Of a DNA stretch of 64,000 nucleotides, positions 13,485 to 14,189 are shown one piece after another. Position 1 is the first letter of the stretch; each line of letters starts with the position of its first letter. Both the position numbers and the translations under genes were made by a program. Source of the stretch: Hahella ganghwensis DSM 17046 (GTDB lineage: Bacteria > Pseudomonadota > Gammaproteobacteria > Pseudomonadales > Oleiphilaceae); assembly GCF_000376785.1 (NCBI RefSeq), contig NZ_AQXX01000133.1:1-64000 (forward strand). Direction: 5' to 3'. The notes under the pieces were generated by a model. It did no database searches and was not told the DNA's origin. It worked only from the letters and a program-made list of their open reading frames with translations.

Positions 13485-14189
13485 TCACGCGGTGATTGGT
13501 ACCCAGCAATGCTTTGCATGGGATTGCTCGACTGCGTCCATAATGACATTGACCCGGTAAGCCGCTCGAAAGTCAGGCCATATGGGACTGTCGGTAGCAA
13601 TACCTTCAATCTGAGCGGTTTTGTAGTCATCTTCAAGCAGCCATCTGAAGACATCCAGCTCATGGATCAGGGTATCGTGAATGGCCATTGGGGTAATATA
13701 GGTTTCAGGTACGGTAGGGTTTCGGTGGGCGGCATGAATCATAAGAGGTGTGCCGATTTCGCCGGCGTCGATGGCTTTTTTCAGCAATCGATAGCCACTG
13801 TCGAAAGGACGCATAAAGCCTACTTGTACCAGGCGTTTTCCGGCAGCGATTTCAGCATCCACGATGTTCTGACATCCCTGGGCTGTCGTGGCTAATGGTT
13901 TCTCGCAAAAAACATACTTGCCAGCTTGAATCGCAGCAACTACGAACTCTTCATGGGTGGGGCCCCAGGAAGTGACCAGAACAGCGTCCACATCGTCTGC
14001 CTTGATCAGATCATGTCCGCTGTCATATACCCTGGCATTCAGCTTCAGATTATCCACGACAGCCCGAGCCTGATCGGTATTGACGTCATTTACGGCAACA
14101 ACTTCGCCCCCGGTAAGAGTATTGGTGATGCGCCTTGCATGATCTTCTCCGATAGCTCCGGTCCCTATAACGCCTATTCTTACAGTCAT
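13485..14189 (-). pseudogene. iolG: Truncated or chimeric inositol 2-dehydrogenase
   Basis: IolG oxidises myo-inositol to scyllo-inosose with NAD, the first step of the pathway; family members are about 335 residues. This frame gives 234. Residues 1 to about 193 are excellent Iol[25 protein letters not shown], and the catalytic Lys97 (EKP), Asp172 and His176, numbered as in Bacillus subtilis IDH. The sequence then jumps to a 40-residue tail ([13 protein letters not shown], then a WV-type end) typical of the C-terminus of other Gfo/Idh/MocA dehydrogenases. Roughly 100 residues of the beta-sheet domain that forms substrate pocket and tetramer are missing, in frame. A deletion between two tandem paralogues explains it. 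Start is ATG 14189 with GAGGAAG upstream. Activity is doubtful. Confidence 0.75.

Follow-up and report, generated by a model that had tools for sequence, protein, structure and literature searches.

An inositol dehydrogenase gene joined in frame to the end of its paralogous neighbor in the inositol locus of Hahella ganghwensis DSM 17046

The inositol dehydrogenase IolG forms a tetramer through its C-terminal sheet. For the Bacillus subtilis enzyme, the accessible text of PMC9603128 gives the catalytic triad as Lys97, Asp172, and His176, describes a motif V (Y233-G-Y235) that includes the substrate-binding Y235, and mentions a central tetrameric interface for models of related enzymes. Damaged inositol genes are described in Propionibacterium freudenreichii, in which, according to the accessible text of PMC4437456, iolE3G2H is disrupted, an extended iolE is read as a gene fusion, redundant iol copies are reported, and all 21 strains grow. 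Narrow literature searches found nothing on inositol use by Hahella, and the accessible part of PMC9030710, in which five Hahella genomes are listed, holds nothing on inositol. Similarly narrow searches, directed at structure papers and at accounts of IolG truncations or fusions, found none describing the gene presented here, which does not prove its absence from print.

Here we analyze a stretch of 64,000 nucleotides of the H. ganghwensis DSM 17046 genome (the window), in which a short iolG frame ends in sequence from a second Gfo/Idh/MocA gene (its product is here called Gfo/Idh2). Residues 1 to 193 of the fusion protein are like B. subtilis IolG (PDB 3MZ0 and 3NT2), and the intact IolG of a genome of the same genus, G004, aligns with 3MZ0 over residues 1 to 335; unlike B. 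subtilis IolG, however, the fusion is without the C-terminal 143 residues, motif V, and most of the sheet. A Gfo/Idh2 of the Hahella type is the source of the last 41 residues, but the first 334 residues of that protein, with its NAD-binding and catalytic parts, are missing. The lesions in P. freudenreichii, as far as the accessible text of that report describes them, are likewise strain-level damage in inositol loci; there, however, redundant copies are reported, whereas the genome of the window has no second inositol dehydrogenase over a profile cut-off.

A fused frame in an otherwise intact inositol locus

The fusion frame begins with ATG and runs through 234 residues with no interruption (Table 1). 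A first-pass annotation of the window had assigned its first 193 residues to IolG, with Lys97, Asp172, and His176 in place, and both the profile match and a check of these residues bear this out. The last IolG codon is codon 193 (CAG), and codon 194 (ATT), the first from the second gene, corresponds to codon 335 of that gene in G004; only residues 335 to 375 of Gfo/Idh2 survive. The exact junction lies inside the range of 13600 to 13612 that had been proposed for the breakpoint. We regard the tail as a true fusion product rather than a chance likeness because 103 bp of its DNA match the 3' end of the G004 Gfo/Idh2 gene, at the expected position, with 79% identity (E value of 2e-19). A frameshifted normal iolG was also ruled out, the IolG C-terminal sequence having no match in the genome of the window.

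Table 1. Features of the inositol locus in the window
Feature	Coordinates	Strand	Basis or remark
Fusion frame, 234 aa plus stop (iolG remnant followed by the last part of a second Gfo/Idh/MocA gene)	13485..14189	-	ORF list, translation
iolG-derived part, codons 1-193 (NAD-binding domain, K97, D172, H176)	13611..14189	-	86.0% identity to G004 IolG; NF052679 match
3' end of second Gfo/Idh/MocA gene (41 codons and stop)	13485..13610	-	31/41 residues identical to G004 Gfo/Idh2
Deletion junction (1533 bp absent compared with G004 L017)	13610..13611	-	DNA alignment, codon mapping
TIM-barrel protein (Pfam AP_endonuc_2), upstream of iolG, also in G004	14283..15152	-	Pfam
iolC (kinase-aldolase fusion), intact	11247..13166	-	NF047869, 895.6 bits (cut-off 600)
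iolD, intact	9336..11195	-	TIGR04377, 945.9 bits (cut-off 715)
iolE, intact	8358..9290	-	TIGR04379, 439.2 bits (cut-off 290)
iolA (methylmalonate-semialdehyde dehydrogenase), intact	6826..8391	-	TIGR01722, 681.5 bits (cut-off 448.5)
iolB, intact	5145..6011	-	TIGR04378, 361.2 bits (cut-off 205)
Sugar-type ABC transporter (substrate-binding, ATPase, permease; the latter two presumed)	15652..19457	+	Divergent; same order in G004 and G005
Presumed RpiR-like regulator	19561..20520	-	G004 has an orthologue in this position; G005 does not

The undeleted arrangement is preserved in G004, in which the TIM-barrel gene is followed by an iolG of 336 amino acids (L017:8960-9970), a spacer of 99 bp, a Gfo/Idh2 gene of 375 amino acids (L017:10070-11197), and iolC, and the genes past Gfo/Idh2 match iolC, iolD, iolE, iolA, and iolB of the window (the iolB match was made by eye). 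The flanks are collinear on both sides: at the DNA level, the TIM-barrel gene and its upstream region align at 71%, iolG aligns at 75% through the end of codon 193, and the region before iolC together with the start of iolC aligns at 78%. The stretch missing relative to G004 is 1533 bp, or 511 codons, a multiple of three. It holds IolG residues 194 to 336 (143 residues) and 334 residues of the second protein, so the earlier estimate of about 100 skipped residues was too low. The comparison with IolG and with the second Gfo/Idh gene of a related cluster, which the annotation had suggested, thus identified both sources of the frame in G004.

The same annotation had attributed the structure to recombination that deleted the segment between two adjacent Gfo/Idh/MocA genes. 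The deletion holds, both genes being intact and adjacent in G004, but the recombination is better described as illegitimate: within 150 bp on either side of the G004 breakpoints, the best exact match spans 7 bp, away from the junction, and the longest exact match between the whole G004 iolG and Gfo/Idh2 genes is 9 bp. Homologous recombination between the paralogues was ruled out because no long shared repeat is present at the junction, and for the same reason the join offers an assembler little on which to collapse. An assembly artefact, in which the organism carries both genes intact and the sequences were collapsed or misjoined, would be in keeping with a draft of 144 contigs (6.56 Mb); collapse, however, needs a shared repeat, the junction is internal to a contig of 127,759 bp, and the missing pieces were found on no other contig of the assembly, for which a completeness of 100% and a contamination of 0.12% are stated. 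We therefore consider such an artefact highly improbable.

It is very probable, in our judgment, that a nonhomologous, in-frame deletion of 1533 bp recently fused iolG to the end of the Gfo/Idh2 gene, inactivated both, and blocked the first step of the pathway. The deleted DNA would have comprised iolG from codon 194 on, the spacer of 99 bp, and all but the end of the Gfo/Idh2 gene, so that a single open frame remained. The event is of an ordinary kind, a deletion fusing neighbors, and its origin can be traced with unusual clarity.

The function of Gfo/Idh2 would have been removed by the same deletion. Its nearest named model is the levoglucosan dehydrogenase NF052479 (387.7 bits, below the cut-off of 650). 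Its orthologue in another genome of the genus set, G005 (L139:7246-8391), lies near a TIGR04380-type iolG and beside genes that we take to be iolB-like and to encode an RpiR-like regulator; because it adjoins these genes, Gfo/Idh2 probably belongs with inositol use. In G005, this orthologue is part of a separate inositol-type locus (L139:4725-9256), and inositol genes are thus found at two places in that genome.

Past the fusion gene, the names of the ATPase and permease of the divergent transporter are our assumption, and its substrate-binding protein has RbsB, MglB, and YtfQ matches, all below cut-off. We likewise presume the gene beyond the transporter to encode an RpiR-like regulator; the G005 gene at that place is presumably LacI-like and differs from the RpiR-like gene of the window and G004.

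Domain content and predicted fold of the fusion product

The Rossmann domain PF01408 is complete in the fusion (residues 3 to 125, profile positions 1 to 120 of 120), its NAD-binding GxGxxG motif is kept as GTGAIG, and all three residues of the catalytic triad are retained. The C-terminal domain is partial by either Pfam model, with residues 133 to 196 corresponding to positions 1 to 72 of 124 in PF22725 and with only positions 1 to 64 of 218 covered in PF02894; most of the C-terminal sheet domain is lost. The NCBIfam IolG profile NF052679 matches residues 1 to 194 of the fusion at positions 1 to 194 of 343, with 325.7 bits against a cut-off of 540, and the intact IolG of G004 scores 570.2 bits. 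Motif V falls in the deleted region and is missing, and both the N-terminal NAD-binding domain and the catalytic helix of Gfo/Idh2 are gone. Like a pseudogene, the fusion is missing functional parts that intact orthologues at this locus possess.

The lost motif is highly conserved. Alignments for motif counts and structural models used 34 of the best 80 loci from the scan described below. In these 34 intact proteins, Y233, G234, and Y235 are invariant, exceeding position 172, and YGYD is found at all 80 of the best 80 loci. K97 and H176 are also invariant in the 34. Position 172 is Asp in 30, and the catalytic Asp is replaced by Asn in 4 otherwise full-length relatives, even though the motif V tyrosines are invariant.

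The AlphaFold2 model of the fusion has a mean pLDDT of 66.0, with the twelve blocks up to residue 120 at 70 to 96 and all later blocks below 60; it is confident only for the nucleotide-binding part. An intact control (L059) modeled with the same 34 sequences reached a mean of 86.5, with confident C-terminal helices and one low-confidence stretch (residues 252 to 269). Compared with the control model, the fusion has lost strands 211-217, 222-229, 237-243, 246-250, and 256-258 and helices 272-293 and 301-320. Its tail contains a low-confidence helix at residues 214 to 226; in the MAFFT alignment, the tail was set against columns of IolG, without true relatives of its own, and its low confidence is therefore partly an effect of the alignment. 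A Foldseek search with the fusion model gave the B. subtilis IolG entries as the top matches, with a TM-score of 0.54 by query length and an rmsd of about 11 over about 195 columns.

The product would keep the Rossmann domain but have neither a complete substrate pocket nor a complete C-terminal sheet, and because these parts are incomplete, we infer that it is inactive on myo-inositol. The opposite reading, that the fusion works as a minimal dehydrogenase or has taken on a new NAD-binding role, with the last helix of the paralogue replacing that of IolG, could draw on the retained triad and GxGxxG motif, the in-frame join, and the tail helix, low in confidence as that is. Yet motif V, five strands, and two C-terminal helices of the intact control are lost, and an in-frame join is expected by chance in one of three deletions, and we consider this reading very unlikely.

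Distribution of the short form and search for another dehydrogenase

If the short form were a functional architecture, conserved homologues of the same 234-residue arrangement might be expected, and the annotation had named them as the finding that would overturn its view; none was found. In a scan of one genome per species, at least 576 of 592 stretches encode relatives, and the best 80 loci were kept. At all 80, the alignment of iolG covered 320 or more of the 336 residues, with protein lengths of 325 to 345, and none had the short architecture. Neither did any of these 80 loci, with flanks of up to 3 kb, contain an open reading frame resembling the second Gfo/Idh gene at more than 38% identity and reaching past residue 300 (L028 was left out of the list of tail sequences). 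A search of 97 genomes at E values up to 1e-20 returned the window's own genome, G004 (at two places), G005, and G022, and the frames of the others have at least 338 residues; a search of 369 genomes from the same class (E values up to 1e-50) returned only the window's own genome and G458. The short architecture was not seen among the matches in the three other genomes and the one other genome, respectively, but because positives were so few (3 of 97 and 1 of 369 besides its own), these wider searches say little about its rarity. The tail sequence alone had matches at E values below 1e-9 in five further members of the genus set, always in frames of 389 to 415 residues. With this distribution added to the structural losses, a working minimal dehydrogenase is unlikely.

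In G458, a one-contig genome from the same taxonomic order, the frame of iolG (L140:4308-5311, minus strand) is lost near codon 274 and continues in another frame, which is either an independent lesion different from the fusion or a sequencing error.

Returning to the deletion that we favor, the missing parts are not found elsewhere in the genome of the window. Residues 194 to 336 of the G004 IolG had no match there at E values up to 1, and the same search, as a positive control, recovered this part twice from G004 and once from G005, with E values below 1e-28. The full Gfo/Idh2 matched only the 41-residue tail at 76%, everything else being at 33% or less. G004 encodes a second IolG-like dehydrogenase (L009:1063-2166, minus strand), 52% identical to the IolG part of the fusion and beside another TIM-barrel gene; no counterpart of it was found in the genome of the window.

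Another dehydrogenase could nevertheless serve the first step, with the fusion dead and the strain still growing on inositol, a reading compatible with the deletion. Five Gfo/Idh proteins besides the fusion exceed the PF01408 cut-off in the genome and could act on inositol without passing an inositol-dehydrogenase cut-off, and in P. freudenreichii, by the accessible text of PMC4437456, disrupted iol genes are covered by redundant copies. None of the five, however, passes such a cut-off: scored from approximate start positions, and L014 by its last 334 residues only, they reach at best 86.5 against 355 for TIGR04380 and 50.1 against 540 for NF052679. One of them (L013) is a PRK11579-type protein over the cut-off of that model. 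A TIGR04380 search of the whole genome, covering Gfo/Idh-type profiles only, returned just the fusion and these five, all below cut-off. A second intact iolG elsewhere in the genome, for which the annotation had advised looking, was therefore rejected, since none passes either profile cut-off, and we regard service by another dehydrogenase as rather unlikely.

Across the genus set, iolE is over its cut-off in six of seven genomes. In five of these six, a full-length inositol dehydrogenase exceeds an NCBIfam cut-off (TIGR04380 in G001, G002, G005, and G006; NF052679 in G004), and the sixth, that of the window, has only the fusion. Of the consequences that the annotation had considered, loss of the first pathway step is thus the best supported, as no other gene passes an inositol-dehydrogenase cut-off.

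Substitution pattern, age, and consequences of the deletion

Lineage-specific changes, polarized with G005 as the outgroup, number 8 in the residues of the fusion (5 in the IolG part and 3 in the tail) versus 9 in the same residues of G004 (p = 1.0), and the excess of change expected under relaxed selection was not seen. All 53 alignment columns that do not vary among 82 intact relatives are preserved in the fusion. Synonymous changes relative to G004 have reached saturation (0.70 to 0.79 of synonymous sites differ in nine genes), and for this reason branch lengths of 0.5 to 1.5 changes per site were assumed; given these lengths and neutral drift, a time as a neutral pseudogene beyond about 1 to 3% of the branch is rejected at 5%. 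If the fusion is drifting freely, it can have done so only for about the last 1 to 3% of the branch since the split from G004.

Against inactivation, the open frame, the kept start and triad, the unbroken invariant columns, and the lack of accelerated change would also fit selection. There is a very slim chance that the fusion folds and functions as a minimal Gfo/Idh protein, the last helix of the paralogue capping the NAD-binding and catalytic half of IolG, with an altered substrate or a regulatory role in NAD sensing. The lack of excess change fits a recent deletion, however, and the same numbers would fit a constrained protein; we prefer a recent event, given the conservation of the missing parts in all relatives examined.

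On this reading, the fusion product would not oxidize myo-inositol and the strain would be blocked at step one, with iolE, iolD, iolB, iolC, and iolA and the transporter still intact. The locus would then represent a clean case of gene loss in progress, in which two paralogous neighbors merged into one open frame. The front half of the fusion resembles an inositol dehydrogenase even though some substrate-binding parts are gone, and pathway predictions made from such partial matches would wrongly call the strain a myo-inositol user. We predict that the strain is blocked on myo-inositol, possibly while still using the ketone downstream of the missing step.

Directly past the stop of the fusion gene, an inverted repeat of 14 pairs with a 6-base loop (window positions 13437 to 13470) is a possible terminator or processing site between the fusion gene and iolC. 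Eight other genes compared in the same way as the fusion showed no strong asymmetry, the largest being in the TIM-barrel gene (21 changes in the window versus 12 in G004). This gene, which had no NCBIfam match at an E value of 1e-30 (and its G004 orthologue none at 1e-3), diverges faster than its neighbors, at 69.6% identity to G004 versus 85 to 95% for the others.
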